Source of the DNA: Crambe crambe
Taxonomy: Eukaryota > Porifera > Demospongiae > Poecilosclerida > Crambeidae
Assembly (NCBI GenBank): GCA_963924555.1
Contig: OZ004590.1
Location: forward strand, 1,651,001-1,715,000
DNA: 64,000 bases
Reading direction: 5' to 3'
Each line of letters starts with the position of its first letter. Within the stretch, counting starts at the first letter, position 1. Of the stretch, positions 29,425 to 40,716 are shown in pieces. A model generated the notes under the pieces. The model saw nothing but the letters and a program-made list of their open reading frames with translations, did no database searches and was not told the origin of the DNA. The position numbers and the translations under genes were made by a program.

Positions 29425-29793
29425 ATTTGACCTTAGATAATTAGACTACGTACACAGGATTGGAAACAATTATTCGCGCGCGGACCATGCGCGTTGCGCC
29501 AAATTATTGCAGCTGTTTACAGTGTGGTTTGTTTCTCTAAGTGTGTGGCTTATTATTGCTGGGGAAAATCCTCTCTCAACTGAAGGACGAACTAATTTAC
29601 AAGGTAAAATTGTGTTATCATTGCCTAGCCAGTGCTAAGAGACCTGCTACGATCTAGCTAATAAAAGCTGCTAATTTACAGTGCTAGAGACCTAGCTAGC
29701 TAGCTATTAGCTATACTGAAGCTTATATGACCACTTCATTGTTAATTGCTTTAACTATAGATCCTCAAGTTTCGCAATAAATTGTGAAAACTA

Positions 29794-30700
29794 AGATGAT
29801 CTCTCATCCACACAATATTGCTGCTCGAGAAGTTGCTACTCTTGAATGGTGCACAAATCCTTCAAGCTATGAAATGTTGAATTGCTATGAAATGTTGAAT
29901 TGCTTTGAAGCACACCTAATAAAATTACTTGAATGTTGTATTGACCCTCATCCCTTAGAGAAAATACAATGGGCAGTACCATAAAATTAGAATCACCACA
30001 GAGTTTCAGAAAATCTGGAGAGATTTTTTTTTGTCAAGCTGGTATAGCAATGGACCCTTCACCCCTCCTGTACTAGAAAATTACAGATGTGTTATTTTGA
30101 ACAAGTAATTCTTAGTAACTGCCCTATTTCAGTGACCTCAGCTACACCTCCCAGCATAATCATGAGTGTGTGATTACTTACAAAGAGAGTAATGCATTGC
30201 TGTATGCAGCAGGGTACATCCCAAGGGCTCTGCACAAGAGATTAAAAAGTTCCTCTCACCCTTTGAAAGAAGATTGTGATTTGTTACTATGATGACGATG
30301 AAGAATCAGAGGATTGGATAGACTTGGTTGACAGGGGAGATTACTCCACATTTCAAACTCCATGTATAGTTTCATGGTGGAGATGGAGAAAGAAGTTCAG
30401 AATCATTTGATAAAGCCCATTGATAACATTAAGTTAAAGAAGGAATGTACAAAAATAGTGAAATTAGATGTAAATGGTCTGCTTAATTTTGATGAAATTA
30501 ATGTTCATGCAGCTAAAAGAAACTGTAACCTTCCTGAGGGTTTACATATGGTCCTGTTACGATCATTTATTAACCTTATAAATCATTCGTCTGGGTGTCG
30601 ACAAAATTTGCAATCATCCAGTAGGGTCAGAAGATGTATCACATCTAATGGTGATGACATAAGTGTTGGTGCATTGGCAGTGGCTTTAATTTTCATGTGA
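29794..30700 (+). pseudogene. Decayed accessory gene of element 1
   Basis: Frame pieces across 29794-30700 resemble the protein of 36194-37153. SNALLYAAGYIPRALHKRL parallels ENAIRYASGFVTMRLKKIY. WIDLVDRGDYSTFQT parallels WISTINRGGLFEINDS. MVEMEKEVQNHLIKP parallels RALELKVQECLPHHL. The last piece, 30362-30700, is open for 112 codons and continues past the region shared with the intact homologue. Stops and frame changes break the gene in at least two places, notably around 30000 and 30300. It is the second occurrence of this gene type in the nest. Confidence 0.6.
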
Positions 30701-30746
30701 TCAACCTCTACATCTCTAATATTTAGGAACCATTTAAAATCTTCCA

Positions 30747-31164
30747 TTATGGTAACACTAAAGAGTGAACAAACTGCTGTGGAATTTGGGTGAGTTTCAC
30801 CAAGGTGTGGTTGGGCTCTTTCAATTTGATGGAAGTATATACACTGTCTGTCCAGGATGACTGAAAGATCACTGAAGCAGGACTTGAAGATACTGGCACT
30901 GGAATAGATGGCACCTTGAGAATGTTCTTACCTCCATGTTTTTGACACACAGTTTGCTTTTTTTCCCTCCTTGGCATAGCTAACAATTGTATAGTAATAA
31001 ATTAATGTGGATGAGTTAGCACGTACACTAGCATAATACATGCAGCTTATGGGATTGATGCTATTCCAAACTGCAGCACTAACTCTATCAGTTGGCAAAA
31101 TTTCATTGCTCATGGAATAGTACCTTTTGTGTGAAAGAAAGCAAAAATATACACCTCCAAACAC
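30747..31164 (-). pseudogene. Possible transposase 5' remnant of element 1
   Basis: Two overlapping minus frames lie near the right TIR of element 1, where element 2 has its transposase start relative to its own ends. One begins AMPRREKKQTVCQKHGGK, a basic start like MPRKKRFTHFKNGERKK of the element 2 transposase. Beyond that similarity is not clear. Position and the basic start are the only support. Confidence 0.25.
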
Positions 31165-31664
31165 AGAAAACTCCAGAAAGCATCAAAGATTCAGGACAAA
31201 AACTTATATTGTGCACACCATTCCGTATGGCAAGCATCACTCCACAACATGAACTTCATTAAAAGGACACAGGAATTATGCCTTTGCAATGAAAGAAGGA
31301 AAAAACTTTATCCGTTGCTAGGGTGATAAAAATCTCCATGGAAAACTGTTTTATGAGCAAACTAACTATACTTAAGAAATACATTTCACATCCCTGGAAC
31401 ATACTCTGTAAAGTAGCCCTTTATTCGATGGTAAAACTCACCAGTTTATTCTCCTTTCATGAAAAGTATACTCGAGAAACAAGGAATAAATTTCCAATTT
31501 TCCTTCGCGCATAGCAACACGGATCGTCCGCGACGATTTGTATTAGCATAATGGGCGCACGTGAGCTGTTTCCAATCCTGTGTACGTAGTCTAATCAATG
31601 ATAGATATATGAGCCGTACCGGGATTGGAAACGGGGTCACGTGCGCCCGTAGGGCTAGTATAAT

Positions 31665-32773
31665 CATAGATATAAGAGGTTTACGGGATTAGAAACGGAT
31701 CACGTGCTCTCGTTAGCAACTAACAACTGAGGCGCGTTGACAGCTGAATGACATAGCACTTTTGTCAAAGTTGCTGTTCTGACAAGATCCGTGAGGTAAG
31801 ACTTATGCCAATGATACTATAATACACTAGGGCATAGATTTACTGTATGAAATAAATTTCAGCTCAGATTTTCAAGTTTATTCCTACAAATACTACTGTA
31901 GTGGTTAATGGGACTGTAATCCCTCTCATGCTTGATGGAATCAATTGCTGTTGCCCATTTTCTGATCAAAAGGCATGTAAATTTTAGCTACATGGAATAG
32001 TAATGTTGGTTTTTGTATTAGCTGACATATATTGTCTCTAGCATTTGCAAGTGGTGTTAAAACTGTAATCCCTCTCACAAGAAATAGATTAACAATATTG
32101 AAACTGTATTAGTTATTTCAGGGAAAGGATAGAACAGTAAATGGAATTGGTGCATTCGTTTTCTATACAATAGTCATCCTATGGAGATGGCAAGCTTACT
32201 ATATTTCCCCCCTAATATCCATAGGGTCCACAGGACAGCTGACTGAGCCGAATTCTTGAGGTGGATGGTGTCAAAACCCAACAGCCAAAAGCTGGAAGTA
32301 TTGCAATAATGTTGATGAGGGAGAACTGGGCAGAAACTGGCGGATAACTTTGGGGCAAAATTATCTAGCTATAATAATAATGAATTTATGTCTAATTTTA
32401 ATACCAAAAGTCATTCTGGCCTTTCTTTCAAATCAATCACATAAAATTAATGTATAATGAGCAATGATAGGTACTCATAGTTATAATTACAAGGAAAAAA
32501 GTTATGAATAATTAATAACTTCCTTCCTCAGACTCTCCAACTTCAACTCTCTGACTCTTCACTTCTTCAATACCTTCCCCTTAGCTTACTTGTACTATTC
32601 TGTGAGCTGTAGGGGCAGAATATCACTTTAACTGCCTTGAAAGGAGTGAATAGTGATCTCTTTTCACAACGATTAATATAATTAATGCTGCATGCGCGTG
32701 CGCATCTGTCAACGCGCCACGGTTGTGCAGTTCATTGGGCGTTTCCAATCCCGTAAAACCTCTTATATCTATG
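31665..32773. mobile_element. Nested TIR element 3, non-coding
   Basis: It begins CATAGATATAAGAGG and ends with the inverse CCTCTTATATCTATG. The inner TIR word is GGGATTAGAAACG on the left and CGTTTCCAATCCC on the right. GTATAAT at 31658-31664 and 32774-32780 is the target duplication. A subterminal inverted pair GCGCGTTGACAG / CTGTCAACGCGC follows. The 1.1 kb interior has no supported gene, so it is a non-autonomous relative of elements 1 and 2. Confidence 0.8.
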
Positions 32774-33447
32774 GTATAATTATTGAAGTACAGGCTCGTT
32801 TCACCTTAGTTACGCGCATGAGTTACTGTCTTCCCGAGTACAAAGGACCGCAAACATAATATTATCAGAAAATCTTTGCGGCTATTGTAAAACAAGCCGC
32901 GAGAACGGTACTGCAGTTTAGCCCAAACAGAATTCGTTCAAATCTCTTTAGGGGAGAAATTTATAAGAAACACTCTCAGCTCCTTGCCTGAATCTATCTT
33001 GTGTACCATTTGCAAGTAAGTGCTATATAATGCAGAGTTAGCATATAGTGGATAATGTAAAGCTACCAAATGTGCAACTAAATCCATTGTCACTAGAATT
33101 AAATAATGAATAGTTTATATCTACTGCCCTCATCTTTGTAATTCAAAGGCTCAATTTTGTGTACCATAAGCAACTGTGTGTTAAAGGATAGGACTTGTTT
33201 TCTGATTAGTAGCAATTGCTTACCTATTAAAGTAACTAAATGTGCTATTTTGCTGAATGCAAGCTGTTTAGCATCCGACTTATGCAGGGATAAAGTTACA
33301 GCTAGCTACACTATAGCTCTATAGCTTAAGGCATAATATTGAGTCCCACATTCCCAAACCAAATTAATAGCTATACACTTTGTGATGAATATAGCTATAT
33401 CACAAAGTGTAGCACTAGCTGACATGGTACTGTAACATGCATGCAGA

Positions 33448-35767
33448 ATGCCTCGGAAGAAAAGATTTACTCATTTCAAGAATGGAGAGAGGAAGAAACA
33501 GGCTGCTAAGAGGGCACAATTAGACATGAACCAATTATACCTGGCAGTAAGGGAAGATATAGATGGATGGGTTGATTTAACTGATCAATCGAAAGGTAGT
33601 ATGTCTTTTCGTTCCAAATCATCCAATGCATATGAGCTCACGATTCATAATGATTTCTCATGGGAGATATGCATTCATGGACGACAAATCAACCACACAA
33701 TGTTGGCACTACCCAAGCTTCTCAACAAAAAAGAATTAATAGTAAATGTTACACACATTCTCAGTAATTCAAAATTATGCCCAGGAAATCCAGACAAGAA
33801 ATTCATTGATATGATCTTGTCCCCAACTTATGAAGGCAAAATAAGAACAAGTGCCGGATCGCTGGTAGCAGAGGTGATTCAAGGGTTCTCTGTTTGGTAT
33901 AACGGTAAAGTATTTAACTCAACAGTTCGAACTACAGATTGTACATTAATTGTGGGTGATGGTAAATGCAATATTTGTCAGAAATTCCGATCAAATTTAA
34001 GATCGATGTATAGTCGATTCTTAAAAAAAAAGGAAACAAAATCTAAATATTGCAACAATCGTTACCTTAGTTCAGCAGAAAAGTTGAAAAAGTTGAAAAA
34101 TCTTCAATCTAAAGCTAGTAATTCAAAATACAATCTCAAGAGGCTAAGAAAGAAAATAAAATAATCGTATGAAAGAAATAGTGTTATTGTGGATCAAGAA
34201 TTACACTCTGACCTCCACAATATAATGGAAGAAAATAAACACAAAATTAATGATACGTATATATCCGAAAGGATCATTTCGCAGGCTATTTTGGGAAGAA
34301 CAATTGAAGGTGGCCAGATTGACGAATTCTCGTCAGATGCGTTGGCACCCGATGATGGTGAGATGGTGCCTCAATCTGAAATTCCTATCCACAGCAGCAT
34401 ATCATGCATTACGAACATCAGGCATGGTCAAGCTTCCATCGGAAAGAACCTTGCGTGATTACACCCATTATATCAAGAGTGCACCAGGATTTTCTGAAGA
34501 AGTTGACCAAATGTTGGAGGAAGAGGCAAAATTATCCGAATTACCTGAGTGGAAGAGACATGTGACATTGGTTTTGGATGAGATGAAGGTGAAGGAAAGC
34601 CTCGTGTACAACAAACATCAGACGAAAGTGATAGGTTTTGTCAACATGGGAGATATTGGTGATCATCTTGATCAATTGGAGAGAGATATTGGTAATGAAA
34701 AAATACCACATGTTGCTACCCATGTACTGACACTAATGATTCGTGGCATTTTTTTCCACCTACATTTCCCATATGCAACTTTTGCAACCACTACAATCAA
34801 AAGTGATTACCTTTTTTTGATAGTATGGGAAGCTATTGAAAGACTTGAAAAATGTGGATTTTAAAGTAATCGTAGTGACTGCTGACGGTGCATCACTGAA
34901 CAGAAAATTCTTTCGCATGCACCAGAGTGACAAAGATGATGGCTTGTGTTATAAAACCAAGAATCCATATGCCTCCGATGAGAGATATGTTTATTTCATG
35001 TCTGATGTACCTCACTTGCTCAAAACGACAAGAAATTGCTGGTCTCACTCTTCAGGCCATGGCAATACACGCAACCTGTGGGTAAGAAAGCAGTTAGCAA
35101 TATAGTGCAAGTAAATCACATGCATAATTTTTAGATCAATGGAAAGGAAATCAGTTGGCAACACCTGTGTAAGCTGTATCATGCAAAGATTGCAATGGGG
35201 AACAGATCACATGGCCTATATCTATTGCCAAAGCTGTCACTAGAGCATATCAAACTCACGTCATACTCAAGGATGCGGGTGGATCTTGCTGTGCAGGTAT
35301 AAGCTACAAATGTTTAAATAGGGTGTAGAATACAATGAGTGAATTCTAATTGTAGGTATTGAGTGAGAGTGTTGGGAATGCACTTAAATTCTATGGTGAT
35401 CCAAAGACATCTGAGACTGAGCGCTTTGTGCGCATATTTGACAAATTATTTGATTGTTTAAATGGTCGGAACAAACTGGAGTACATCAAGAGGAGGAAAC
35501 CAAATTTAAAACCTTATACTGACACTTCAGACGAGAGATTTAAGGTACTGTACTGCAATTTAATATTGTAATTAATGGATGGCAAAGTGGTATTTTTGTA
35601 GTGGCTCAAGGAGGATTTTCTGGACTACTTGAAGGAATGGGAAGATAGCATTGAGTCTAATTCTGAAGTATCAGATGGTTACAAAGCAACTATGTGTCTC
35701 AGCACAGAAACTCTAGAAGGCCTACGAATAACAGGTACATTTTGCAGATAGCATGCATGCATACACA

Positions 35768-35836
<69 letters not shown>

Positions 35837-36163
35837 AAATCATTCGTTGAAGTATCTAAATATCTGCTCTCTCTTCCTGGATATCCAGAGAAGTATATTC
35901 TCAGTGAATGTTTTTCACAAGACCCCTTAGAGAATTTCTTTGGCCAAGTTCGTGGAAGAGGTGGCCGCTCTGAAAATCCATCTGTACAGGCATGCCTTGA
36001 GTCTACTCAATCTCTAAGAGTACAAGGATCTGTTTCTCTGCTACCTGTTAGAGGTAATAGTAGTCGGAAAAGACGGCTCTTGCACAAGGAGGTGATTGAT
36101 GATACACCTCTTCCAAAGAGACGAAGACAAGCAAAAAAGTTGAATAATCAAGATAATGAATGA
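33448..36163 (+). pseudogene. P-element-superfamily transposase gene (decayed)
   Basis: It catalyses cut-and-paste DNA transposition in the nucleus when intact. Family marks in order: FWEEQLKVARLTNSRQMRWHP, SERTLRDYTHY, VLDEMKVKESLVY (first catalytic Asp region), VVTADGASLNRKFF, FMSDVPHLLKTTRNCW, YSRMRVDLAVQVLSESV and DPLENFFGQVRGRGG, all typical of P transposases. Four short introns fit phase: 35082-35134, 35297-35355, 35545-35601 and 35735-35834 (the last holding CT and AC microsatellites). The N-terminal 238 codons (33448-34164) have no THAP finger; instead they hold SSNAYELTIHNDFSWEICIHG, KLCPGNPDKKF and DGKCNICQKFRSNLRSMY. A stop at 34162-34164 and frame changes near 34250 and 34860 mean this copy is not functional as it stands. 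Confidence 0.8.
35779..35833. repeat. CT then AC dinucleotide microsatellite
   Basis: A run of CT repeats is followed directly by AC repeats, inside the last intron of the P-type transposase gene and ending at its acceptor. The two ORFs reading it as Leu/Ser and Thr/His runs are artefacts. Confidence 0.9.
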
Positions 36164-36193
36164 CTGATATAGCTAGCTACAATACATATTTTG

Positions 36194-37153
36194 TTAATCA
36201 TCACTGGAGTCCAAGTCTGTTGATCCTTTCTTGGACTTTTTTTTGGCTAATTCCTTTCTCAATGCTTTTTTCTTACTTACTTGCTTTGCTTTAATATCCT
36301 TATATTCTTGTAACCAAGAAGATGTTATGGTGAATCCTCTAAGAGTGACCCACTTTTCCACTATTGTGCGCAAAAGATTATCAGAATACTTGGAATCGAT
36401 GTTTATGGAAAGCATTGACCAGAGAAAATTGACATCTTCATCATCCATGATGAGGGTGAAAAGTTGCTCCTTTGACATGGTTCCACCTTTTAGATGATGA
36501 GGAAGACACTCTTGTACTTTAAGCTCAAGAGCACGAAAAAAGAGGAAACAGCTGTCATTGATTTCAAATAGGCCACCTCGGTTTATAGTACTTATCCAAA
36601 TTTTAGTATATTCATAAAAATTACTTCCATCACCCTCAACTGACATGTTAGCGAGGCATTCTACAAACTGCCTGGCTTTGTTGGTATGTTCCTGTTCGTA
36701 AATTTTCTTCAATCGCATTGTGACAAATCCACTTGCATATCTAATAGCATTTTCTTCTTCCGAAGACATATGCACTGATAATGGTCTTGATGACATAGCC
36801 GATGATGCATGATTAGTGGAAAAATGTTCAGTTAGGATTTCATTAAAAATTAGTCTGTTAATTGATTGAAGTAACACTGGAGTGCTTGTAATTTCAAGCT
36901 CAGCTAAGCTTTTGTTCCATATTTCAGGTAGCGTGTTCAGTCTGAGCTGATGAAATTTTTTTATAGCCCTTTCTCTTGCATGTGCCATACTTACTCTTCC
37001 CAACTCCATTATACATGTCTTGATAGCAGAAATTAATTCACAAAATAATTTGTCCACAACTTTTTTGTTGCTACTTGCAATTAAAAGGGACATTATTTCA
37101 TTCTTCCCAGCTGCTTTAATGACCCTTTCAATCATTGGGGTACTGGCTGCCAT
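36194..37153 (-). CDS. Accessory protein of the P-like transposon, unknown function
   Basis: An intact 319-codon frame from ATG at 37153, convergent with the transposase and inside the same TIRs. The protein is helical and charged: RERAIKKFHQLRLNTLPEIW, then SSEEENAIRYASGFVTMRLKK, LFEINDSCFLFFRALELK, EKWVTLRGFTITSSWLQEY, and a Lys/Ser/Asp tail (KKKSKKGSTDLDSSDD). There is no signal peptide, membrane helix or zinc motif. I recognise no domain. A decayed relative lies in element 1 (29794-30700), so the gene seems to be a regular part of this transposon family. It could be a regulator or co-factor of the transposase, a repressor, or a DNA-binding protein; the sequence does not decide. It is uninterrupted while the partner transposase is broken. 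Confidence 0.7.
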   Translation of the reverse strand: MAASTPMIERVIKAAGKNEIMSLLIASSNKKVVDKLFCELISAIKTCIMELGRVSMAHARERAIKKFHQLRLNTLPEIWNKSLAELEITSTPVLLQSINRLIFNEILTEHFSTNHASSAMSSRPLSVHMSSEEENAIRYASGFVTMRLKKIYEQEHTNKARQFVECLANMSVEGDGSNFYEYTKIWISTINRGGLFEINDSCFLFFRALELKVQECLPHHLKGGTMSKEQLFTLIMDDEDVNFLWSMLSINIDSKYSDNLLRTIVEKWVTLRGFTITSSWLQEYKDIKAKQVSKKKALRKELAKKKSKKGSTDLDSSDD

Positions 37154-37652
37154 GATCTATAAGATTAAATTATTTACTATTAGGTACCTAGCTTGTATTG
37201 CATTCTAATTTTAGCACAATATCTAGCTAGCTAGAAATAATAATAATAAGCTCAGAGGTTTGGAAAGAATGTAACCCTTGTATTGCACTAATTCAATCAT
37301 ACAGCAAATTTAAACGTACATAGATACATGTGTTTGAAACCCAACAAGACTCTCAAAAACGCTGACAGTATAAAAACCACAGTCCTTGAACATACCTTGA
37401 ACAAGTCAGGCGGTTACTTAGCTATTAGGCTAATTATAGCTAGCCTATAGCTATCATGCTATCATACCTACTGTACACAGGGACTTTAGCATCCACGAAT
37501 CCAGTTCTCTAGCTTGCTGCAAGTCCTGCTGCCGGTCCCGCGCCTTACGCGCCATTGGTTATACGGTGAGTAGGGGGTTAATTTCCTGCACTACCGAGTT
37601 AATAGCGAAACGCGCCTAATTAATTTCAGAAGTATTACGTTTCCAATCCCGG

Positions 37653-38098
37653 TGTCATAAAGTTTTGGGGACCCCATAGTTCTAGGGACCCCCTGTCCCT
37701 AAATCTACCGTAGATATGGGGACCCCCTCAGAGATATAGGGACCCCCAGTCCTCGAGCTTTATATCTCTACATAGCTGACAAAACAAAAGTGAGGAAATA
37801 TTCAGTTCAAGCTGGGTAAGTTAGCCTATCTGTAGCTAGTACTTATTTTACTGTTTTAGGGTTGAATAATAGCTATGAGGAAGTGGGCTATTCAGTTTGA
37901 GGCTGTCATCCATATGGACCACACAGTTTAATATTAAAATACAAAATTACATTATCCTAGCTTGCATTAATTTTTATCCATATTAATTATTTTTAATCAC
38001 TAGCTACTACAACTACTACTATTATATTGTTTAGTTTCATAATGTTTATTTTATTTTAATGATAATGATAATAATAATAATAATGATAATAAATAATA

Positions 38099-38180
<82 letters not shown>

Positions 38181-39214
38181 GGTCAGATTCCTCTACCACA
38201 CTTTCAGCAAAAATCCAACATAGATTTAACGACCTCCAATAGCTATATCTGTAGATTCAATGATAAAATATCTGTACTGGCATCCACTAAAAATTTGACA
38301 CCACTAAATTACCTCATCTGTGACCCCATCCCCAAATGTATGAATCTATTATAGCTAGCTAAGTAGCTACAGTACCCTATCTGTAGATATGGGGACCCCA
38401 TCCCCAAATGTAACTCATCCAGATATACCGTAGGTACCATTTTTCTATCTGTAGATATGGGGACCCCATCCCCAAATGTATGCTTATCATAAAAGATACC
38501 TCATCCAGATATACTGTATGTACCATTCTCCATCTGTAGATATGGGGACCCCATATGTTTATCAATAAAGATACCTCATCCAGATATACCGTAGGTACCA
38601 TTCTCCATCTGTAGATATGGGGACTCCATCCCCAAATGTATGTTGATCAAAGGATATCTCATCCACGAATCTTCATAGATAATTATAGGAACCTTTTTAG
38701 ATGGTCTACTTCACTTGTATCATCTTTTTCCTACTCACGAGGTGGTCTCTCATCTGCAACCTGCTCCTTCGTAATGCTGGCCAAGGATTGCTTGCTTGAA
38801 AACCTCTGTTTACCTCTCTGTCTCAGTTTGCGACAGTGAGGCACCCTCAGACATCTTGCCCCAAATTGAAACAGCTATAGCCTATTATTGTGGTTTATAT
38901 TACGTATACCTACAAGCATGCTATATGAATATAAAGGGGAACAGCTTAGTTCCCAGACTGATTTTTTCTCCCCGAGCTTGCTATTAGCAATACTATTGCT
39001 ACTTGGCCAGATCTGGCTACTTGGCTGGGGTCCCCATATCTACGCAGGGGTCCCCATATCTACCGTAGATATGGGGACGGAGGTTCCCATTTCTACGTAG
39101 ATTTAGGGATGGGGATCCCCATATCTACGTCGATGTGGGGACGGGGATCCCCATATCTACGTAGATTTGGGGACGGGGGTCCCTGAAATAGGGGGTCCCC
39201 AAAACATTATGACA
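37653..39214. mobile_element. TIR element with internal minisatellite, CCGG target duplication
   Basis: It begins TGTCATAAAGTTTTGGGGAC and ends with the inverse, one mismatch (CCCCAAAACATTATGACA). CCGG at 37649-37652 and 39215-39218 is a 4-bp target duplication that exactly splits the right TIR of element 2. Inside are GGGGACCCC words, four to five direct units around 38380-38640 (TAGATATGGGGACCCC, CATCCAGATATACCGTAGG), an AAT microsatellite (38056-38180), and TCTACGTAGAT palindromes near the right end. No credible gene. Confidence 0.8.
38056..38180. repeat. AAT trinucleotide microsatellite
   Basis: Nearly uninterrupted AAT/ATA units with a few GAT variants at the start, inside the TGTCATAA-ended element. 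Confidence 0.9.
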
Positions 39215-39258
39215 CCGGTACGGCTCATATATCTATGGTCTAATTATCTAAGATTTGA

Positions 39259-40716
39259 CGAATGGTATATTACCGCCCGGGATTGAAAACGGAACCAATT
39301 CCACGGGCAATCCGTGTTATGAAGTCAACGCGCGCGCGCTTAAATCTAATAATTATTACAGAACATACAGTGATAATGTGCAATACATACAGTGCATGCT
39401 ACTAGTGATGTGATGGACTCTTCTTCCTCTCCTTATTCATCAGTCGAGGAGGCTACTACACAATAATTATACTACACTATATAATAATTACTTTCTGGCT
39501 CAGATAGATTTGCAAGCACAAGTAAGTGATCACAAAAATTGATGCAGAGTTGCTAATAATATAATATTATACCATCAAAATTGTCAATGAACTTCAATGC
39601 CAAGATGCAGTCATCAGAGTTACCAACACAATTTTGCTTTAATCAATCCGGCACAGTTTAATACTAGAGAGACACAGGAGCTGCAATGCCGGAACAATTT
39701 TTAGGGTCGTGTTGCGATCTATAAATGATATCGACACTATTGATCATTTAATACTGGCATGAACTGTGGAGTGACCAGGATATCTGGAATGGAGTGCAGC
39801 AGTGGAGGCTACATGACCATTACTTTCTTGTACATAGCCGATGCTTCCTTCCTCCCATGAGTGCTCTAAATAATTGGTTTATATTTTCACCATTAATGCA
39901 GTAACATGCATCTAATGCCACTCATTCTATAAAAGAAGGATGACTCTACTCACAAAACTAGATAATTAGCACAAACCTAAGTTATGAAGACTACCATTCC
40001 CCCGACAAATTTTCTTCTAGTTTTCTATATCGCTAAAGTGTGGAATTTAGCTGAAATTGTGGATGCAAATTATAAATACTAACCGCCGCTTGCAGTTTCC
40101 CTGTGAAAGAGCAGCCACACGCCTCCTAGCGGACCGCTGCAGCCCGTTGCTACCCACGTAACTACCGTAATCGTATAAATTTTCGATGGGGTTTTATTTT
40201 CGTTTTTTTCGTAGTCGATCAGAATCCTCGAAAATAATAAACGAAGTCTTAGTACTATGACGTCATATATGACGACGATGCGCATGCGTGTGTGATATCG
40301 ATAGCAGCTGGAAAACAGATAGTCGAGAGTATCATGCTTCATTACCGCCGTTACCTGTCTCTCTTGCTTCTACAACGAAGCGTCTCGCCTTCCATAGCAG
40401 TCTAGATTTTAGTTTGGCCGTCGCCAGCCCAGCTTTTCTTGCATGTCACTCGGCCCCAGCAGCAGGCAATGATATAGCTATTAATATACGCGCATGTGCT
40501 TGCTACGTACGTACGTACGAAAATTAGACCTGCGGAAATTTTTTATTATAGGAACAATCCGGAAATCACGAAATTTTAAACCTCCGAAAATTTATACGAT
40601 TACGGTAGGTAAGTTTCTTGGTCGCAAACCATAACACGGAGTGCCCGCGGAATTTTCAATTAGCGTATAGCCTATGCTACCGTTTCCAATCCCGGGGCGG
40701 TAATATACTATCTATG
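39259..40716. mobile_element. Nested TIR element 4
   Basis: The right end reads CGTTTCCAATCCC then GGGGCGGTAATATAC and TATCTATG (to 40716). The left end has the inverse with some decay: GGTATATTACCGCCC and GGGATTGAAAACG from about 39260. It abuts the right duplication of element 1, so element 1 seems to have inserted at its left edge. The interior holds a MITE (40163-40607) and no supported gene. Confidence 0.65.
40163..40607. mobile_element. TA-flanked MITE with TACCGTAATCGTATAAA termini
   Basis: TACCGTAATCGTATAAATTT on the left is matched by the inverse on the right (AAATTTATACGATTACGGTA). It shares the leading TACCGTA with the MITE at 7507-7995. It is inserted in element 4. The frames 40079-40342 and 40288-40527 cross it and are not credited. 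Confidence 0.75.

Follow-up and report, generated by a model that had tools for sequence, protein, structure and literature searches.

A convergent gene that may supply the C-terminal domain of the transposase in a P-superfamily transposon of the sponge Crambe crambe

The P element is the textbook single-gene cut-and-paste transposon. A P-superfamily transposon in the genome of the sponge Crambe crambe, here called element A, raises the question of what a second, convergent gene might do in such an element. Element A occupies positions 31596 to 39237 (plus strand) of a 64,000-nucleotide window, i.e. the whole stretch of DNA that was analysed (assembly GCA_963924555.1, contig OZ004590.1, positions 1,651,001 to 1,715,000), and its terminal inverted repeats (TIRs) and target-site duplication (TSD) were read directly. 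One TIR pair encloses a transposase gene on the plus strand and an accessory gene for a protein of 319 amino acids on the minus strand, with 30 bp between the two stops, as a sequence-only reading of the window had proposed. From sequence comparisons, we consider it probable that the element represents a lineage of the P superfamily in which the transposase is split and the C-terminal domain (CTD) would be supplied in trans by the convergent gene.

The recurrence of the gene pair was assessed by genome-wide searches of the assembly (143 Mb, 119 contigs). A first search with the 319-amino-acid protein yielded 128 places, which merged into 120 accessory loci. Within 5 kb of these, a match to PF21787, which represents the N-terminal part of the RNase H domain, was found in convergent orientation at 85 loci, on the same strand at four and in divergent orientation at none, and 31 had no such match. 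The chance expectation of a transposase partner is about 0.012 per accessory locus. An enlarged survey, with two further query proteins and the exon encoding the C-terminal part of the RNase H domain, resulted in 181 merged accessory loci and 123 exon places (150 of the 152 matches of one search and 89 of the 122 of another were entered, the remaining 33 overlapping loci already included). For the 181 loci, the partners within 3 kb were convergent in 107 cases, on the same strand in three and divergent in none, and 71 loci had no detected partner; the respective values for 5 kb are 108, five, one and 67. Starting from the exon, 91 of the 123 places have a convergent accessory gene within 1.5 kb, one has an accessory gene on the same strand, and 31 have none. 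Two of the three same-strand loci within 3 kb (C20 and C8) adjoin a convergent accessory gene, and the third is C21:2924301. All these counts are lower bounds, because the searches score the best candidates only. In this one genome, homologues of the accessory gene are thus not found mostly away from transposase genes.

Next to the orientation, the ends of the elements were inspected in 26 loci, with 6-10 kb read for each. In 16 of the 26, both genes are enclosed by CATAGATA TIRs (at least 15 of the first 16 bases matching) and by an exact 7-bp TSD; one further locus has an 8-bp TSD, bringing the loci with one TIR pair around both genes to 17. This survey did not find TIRs and TSDs in nine loci, including the window copy (L010), which has an altered left tip. 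For each locus, the 7-bp TSD option with the longest TIR match was chosen; 6-bp and 9-bp alternatives occur at the same ends. Most of the subfamilies (TIRs of L009, L022, and L028-L034) have an inner block like GGGATTGG(A/C)AAC about 10-25 bases into the TIR, and the intervening bases differ.

The pairwise distances between transposases and between accessory proteins were compared for 12 loci, two of which are close relatives. The Mantel r was 0.88, and one of 5,000 permutations was as high, suggesting that the two genes travel together. The accessory protein evolves faster than the transposase in these loci, and subfamilies with accessory proteins that are only 21-47% identical keep the same arrangement. 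The proposal that the window contains a two-gene transposon with a recurrent convergent partner is therefore well borne out, by the fractions of convergent pairs (85 of 120 and 91 of 123), the TIRs and TSDs, and the parallel divergence. A pairing by chance, e.g. of unrelated elements nested in one another, or a functionless antisense frame, could be suspected in a window that is full of nested elements. It is ruled out by the same layout at 91 of the 123 places and across divergent subfamilies, by the TIR pairs shared by both genes, and by the parallel divergence, and we give it practically no credence.

The transposase gene of element A (33448 to 36163, plus strand) has exons at 33448-35081, 35135-35296, 35356-35544, 35602-35734, and 35835-36163, with splice signals common to the open copies. 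In agreement with the sequence-only reading, it is broken, the spliced reading being open for 238 residues, and the accessory frame is open. Element A is one of 11 loci of the same family, with main blocks 97.8-99.6% identical to L009, a relative of about 4.95 kb without the nested insertions of element A. In L009 and L012, the five exons result in an open spliced frame of 809 amino acids. The fourth intron contains a CT/CA microsatellite (35768-35833 in the window), and L009 differs from the window copy in this repeat.

The L009 protein contains the N-terminal part of the RNase H domain (PF21787, 2e-26), the guanosine triphosphate (GTP)-binding insertion (PF21788, 4e-19, residues 521-639), and the C-terminal part of the RNase H domain (PF21789, 2e-8); pieces of the window transposase match PF21787 (6.8e-20) and PF21789 (1.2e-8). 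The catalytic triad D376, D478, and E737 of L009 aligns with D230, D303, and E531 of the fly enzyme (BLASTP E value 7e-19; fly residues checked against PDB 6P5A), and the GTP-binding insertion sits between the second catalytic aspartate and the glutamate. Judged by its catalytic core, the element belongs to the P superfamily. The helix-turn-helix (HTH) region PF12017 was over the cut-off in L034 only (7.6e-5) and below it in the window copy (0.0099) and in L022 (0.027); the scans of the spliced L009 protein and of the remaining transposase frames did not report it.

Two features that are canonical for the P element and THAP9, i.e. a THAP domain and a CTD in cis, are not found here. The THAP domain (PF05485) had no match in the transposase frames of seven loci (L009, L022, L029, L030, L032, L033, and L034), and none of the 30 THAP places of the genome lies within 5 kb of these transposon loci, and two lie within 10 kb. 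The L009 transposase stops 72 residues past the catalytic glutamate, with a short basic tail. The frame ends 71-79 residues past this glutamate in 15 of the 26 loci, and earlier in L023 and L027; the motif was not found in nine. This end is approximately the point at which the linker begins in the fly enzyme, and it leaves no space for a CTD in the same polypeptide. Such a domain was also sought in three transposase loci without an accessory gene (L048, L049, and L050), of which 2-3 kb each were examined. Similarity to the transposase stops at residue 676 in L048 and at residue 523 in L049, and the stretch read contains neither a further match nor an accessory gene. L050 contains the C-terminal end of an accessory gene, in convergent orientation, adjoining a run of N.

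The accessory gene of element A (36194 to 37153, minus strand) is open over its 319 codons and includes a CTD-like region with AGYV-type and RGGL motifs. Its stop is located 30-85 bases beyond the transposase end in the examined loci with both ends intact. Residues E133, G142, W186, R192, G193, L195, E210, W245, L261, and R272 are invariant in 11 accessory proteins, the C-terminus is lysine-rich, and a low-confidence model predicts an all-helical protein. Pfam scans found no match for the window protein and none above the cut-off for the 11 accessory proteins; the weak matches besides PF12596 included TFIIA (E 0.6) and DNA topoisomerase IV (E 0.31), near the L030 tail.

The accessory frame had been described as unrelated to the transposase. 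This part of the sequence-only reading has to be revised, because the protein resembles the CTD of the fly transposase. A profile of 22 accessory sequences scored the fly CTD at 15.6 bits, first of 50,010 sequences; the highest score among the 50,000 shuffles was 14.6. For comparison, seven windows of the fly core scored −0.5 or less, an eighth had no score, and the reversed CTD reached 4.2. With a 12-sequence profile, the CTD scored 14.9 bits and ranked second of 20,001 (itself plus 20,000 shuffles); it ranked third with an 11-sequence profile. The hhalign comparison of the accessory protein with the CTD had a probability of 69.8 and an E value of 4.2e-5 over 79 columns. The aligned blocks are collinear, i.e. 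the AGYV motif is followed by GGL and a conserved glutamate. The model for the CTD of the 87-kDa P transposase (PF12596) has 12 matches with E ≤ 10 in the genome, and all 12 are located within an accessory frame or immediately next to one, with the same strand orientation. Ten of these are at or adjoining places of the first accessory search, and the other two proved to be accessory frames on reading. The merged accessory loci represent 0.12 Mb of one strand, compared to a total strand length of 286 Mb.

Several observations weigh against the accessory protein as a split-off CTD. No PF12596 match is over the cut-off, the best having an E value of 0.65 and 17.3 bits versus a gathering cut-off of 22.6, and the 12 matches represent few independent events, because most of them look like one subfamily. 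When the 11 accessory proteins were scanned singly, only one matched PF12596 (E 0.13, motif RYIAGYV). One or two shuffles beat the fly CTD with the 11- and 12-sequence profiles. The alignment is confined to two differently spaced motif blocks, and the initial ~130 residues are without a counterpart. PDB searches with the accessory protein or profiles found nothing useful: the profiles of 11 and 12 accessory proteins had no chain at E ≤ 10, and one match, at 0.016, was to F-box/LRR protein 3. Single-sequence fold models were poor (predicted local distance difference test values of 44 and 55); the fold-search matches listed for such models (42 of 42; the best 50 of 167; 50 entries from 109 chains) do not include a P transposase, an absence that is no evidence. 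Finally, no partner was detected inside 3 kb for 71 of the 181 accessory loci. Taken together, the comparisons support homology of the accessory protein to the P transposase CTD, albeit weakly.

The partnerless loci, which are common (the above 71, and element B, see below), and the weakness of the individual CTD matches would also be compatible with an independently acquired regulator of transposition, either an activator or a repressor, that is no transposase subunit and has CTD-like motifs by chance or convergence. In the fly, retention of the third intron leads to a 66-kDa protein without the CTD, which is a repressor (PMC7776569; here and below, papers are cited from their accessible parts), and the CTD boundary is therefore a natural control point. 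Nevertheless, we consider an independent regulator unlikely, because the collinear AGYV and GGL blocks outscore 50,000 shuffles, because 12 of 12 genome matches to the P C-terminal model are in or beside accessory frames, and because the transposase is without that very domain. A role in the regulation of transposition, which the sequence-only reading had suggested, is possible as a secondary one; a missing transposase subunit fits better.

The accessory protein could also be a partner from elsewhere, for DNA binding or nuclear import, comparable to the second protein of PIF/Harbinger elements, which is Myb-like, or to RAG2L, and serve end recognition as the THAP domain is missing. The negative THAP searches in the seven loci and around the 30 genome places, the lysine-rich C-terminus, and the convergent pairs known in RAG-like (RAGL) elements (PMC7204232) are in accordance with such a partner. 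In contrast, the 11 accessory proteins have no Pfam match over the cut-off, with TFIIA and DNA topoisomerase IV among the weak ones, and the similarity that was found is to the P CTD. A foreign partner is therefore very improbable in our view.

The split transposase, which we prefer, could work as follows. The first gene would encode the catalytic subunit, composed of an N-terminal region in which no domain is recognised, the HTH region, the RNase H DDE core with its GTP-binding insertion, and the short basic tail. The second gene would encode a probably helical protein, the second half of which would correspond to the CTD. Both proteins would be required and would assemble on the TIRs. The accessory protein would make contact with the catalytic subunits by occupying the CTD position between the RNase H domain of one subunit and the GTP-binding domain of the other, and it may bind DNA there, i.e. 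the looped-out transposon DNA and the target DNA. The complex would then cut and paste the element, giving the 7-bp duplications.

What is known about the function of the P element CTD comes mainly from a single structure. In PDB 6P5A, the fly transposase is divided into a chain A ending at residue 569 and a separate CTD chain of 135 amino acids (chain B), presumably because the linker is disordered. The CTD is a plausible domain to split off, because in the fly it already works between subunits via a loose linker. A separately encoded CTD would be a natural two-part system, in which the CTD function can be added or omitted. It would show that a transposase can gain a second subunit by splitting and not by capture of a foreign gene, unlike in one of the origins proposed for RAG1/RAG2.

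Because the product of the catalytic gene would be without a CTD from the start, expression of the second gene could, speculatively, be the switch. In a more specific version, which we put forward tentatively as possible rather than probable, fission produced a two-subunit transposase, the product of the first gene alone would be inactive and P-repressor-like, the CTD gene in trans would be the on/off switch of the family, and accessory-only copies, e.g. element B, would be remains of helpers or titrators. On the same two-subunit reading, the split would achieve by gene arrangement what the fly does by retaining the third intron, suggesting a parallel elsewhere in animals to the repressor/activator switch of the fly.

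Intact copies are present elsewhere in the genome: the full accessory open reading frame exists in eight of the 11 same-family loci, and splicing yields an open transposase frame in two of the eight that were tested (the exon marks could not be located in L011 or L017; L019 was left out). By our own arithmetic, frame length alone predicts that about 0.58 of the accessory genes survive if 0.25 of the transposases do. A shorter frame should remain open in more copies, and thus no special protection is needed for the accessory gene to outlive the transposase. The ratios of nonsynonymous to synonymous substitution rates (dN/dS) across copies, which had been proposed as a check, gave a partial answer. 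In 28 listed between-subfamily pairs, many of which repeat the same subfamily pair, synonymous sites were saturated in 27 and one had a dS of 3.05, with dN values of 0.44-0.58. The dN/dS values of close pairs ranged from 0.08 to 0.84, many of these pairs including decayed copies and therefore being mixtures; the values for three pairs of accessory frames from other subfamilies were 0.33 (L040-L041), 0.43 (L035-L037, L037 being a fragment), and 0.63 (L036-L038). Selection on the accessory gene is likely, and because of the synonymous saturation and the scatter of the close pairs it is not cleanly measured by dN/dS. The fragment in L037 (920-1889) adjoins an N-terminal piece of a transposase on the opposite strand, like an internally deleted element, and L020 has adjacent accessory pieces on both strands, suggesting an inversion within the gene.

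How does this arrangement compare with known systems? The element shares with the Drosophila P transposase (PDB 6P5A/6PE2) and THAP9 the RNase H DDE core with the GTP-binding insertion, the three aligned catalytic residues, and a CTD-like domain within the element. It differs from them in having two genes, with the CTD-like domain on the separate convergent one, in that no THAP domain was found, and, from the Drosophila P element, in a TSD of 7 bp instead of 8 bp (PMC7776569). THAP domains are reported there to be restricted to animals. The zebrafish element Pdre2 also has a TIR that begins with CAT (CATACCTG..., PMC10983969). Galileo, another member of the P superfamily, has a 7-bp TSD as well (D. 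willistoni consensus GTATTAC, with 8 bp in three copies; PMC4168063); it is described with a transposase segment (PMC4168063) and unusually long TIRs (PMC3688188), whereas the sponge element has two genes and short TIRs. The RAG-like elements (RAGL/ProtoRAG) resemble it in their convergent genes for a catalytic protein and a non-catalytic partner between TIRs (PMC7204232). In contrast, they have RAG1L/Transib chemistry, a 5-bp TSD, and a Kelch partner, whereas the partner in the sponge shows similarity to part of an enzyme from its transposase's own family; Pfam scans of the accessory and transposase proteins revealed neither a RAG1L core nor Kelch RAG2L domains, and the TSD is 7 bp long. A transposase and a second protein within one DNA transposon are also found in PIF/Harbinger and KolobokP (PMC5543537, PMC9587614), the second protein of KolobokP being, in contrast, a homing endonuclease. 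No two-gene P element was described in the titles and abstract beginnings of the literature searched, with Repbase outside that search. Relatives of the accessory protein or of query A1 were not found in a viral-contig collection, nor relatives of query A2 in a genome-contig collection (the collections are viral and prokaryotic).

Element A is flanked by the 7-bp TSD GTCTAAT at 31589-31595 and 39238-39244. Its left TIR (31596 to 31633, plus strand) has altered first bases, CAATGATAG in place of CATAG. The right TIR (37638 to 39237, minus strand) is split at CCGG by the nested element E into an inner part (37638-37652) and an outer part (39215-39237). The TIR arms at 31601-31622 and 39215-39236 are 100% complementary. 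Element E (37653 to 39214) has a length of 1.56 kb, the ends TGTCATAA and TTATGACA, and a duplicated CCGG. The same CCGG holds a 1.5-kb element with TGTCATAA ends in four copies that were read (window, L012, L015, and L019), and L017 carries TGTCATAG at this site. The window copy of this element is inverted relative to that in L012, and the L015 copy resembles the others mainly at the ends. Based on these differences in orientation and sequence, at least three separate insertions at one CCGG site are likely, and the TGTCATAA-ended element is possibly a site-specific parasite of the transposon end. A second nested element, D (31665 to 32773), is small and non-autonomous, with CATAGATA TIRs and the TSD GTATAAT at 31658-31664 and 32774-32780.

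Element A itself resides in element B (29432 to 31595, plus strand), the right end of which resumes at 39245-39252, with the TSD ATTTGAC at 29425-29431 and 39253-39259. Because element A inserted in the right TIR of element B, the outer ends of the latter are 29432 and 39252. Element B is older than element A and is an accessory-only remnant of another two-gene family. Its decayed accessory frame (29715 to 30658, plus strand) is closest to L046; between 29969 and 30433, it is 63% identical to the accessory of that locus (E 3e-53). The sequence-only reading had thus correctly recognised a second element with a decayed accessory gene, and its extent had to be corrected to the above ends. Element C (39261 to 40716) has related TIRs, an approximate left end, and no established TSD; neither the L009 transposase nor any of the accessory queries used matched it. 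Farther downstream, the GC content is 0.46-0.51 between 46000 and 52000, compared to 0.35-0.41 in most of the window.

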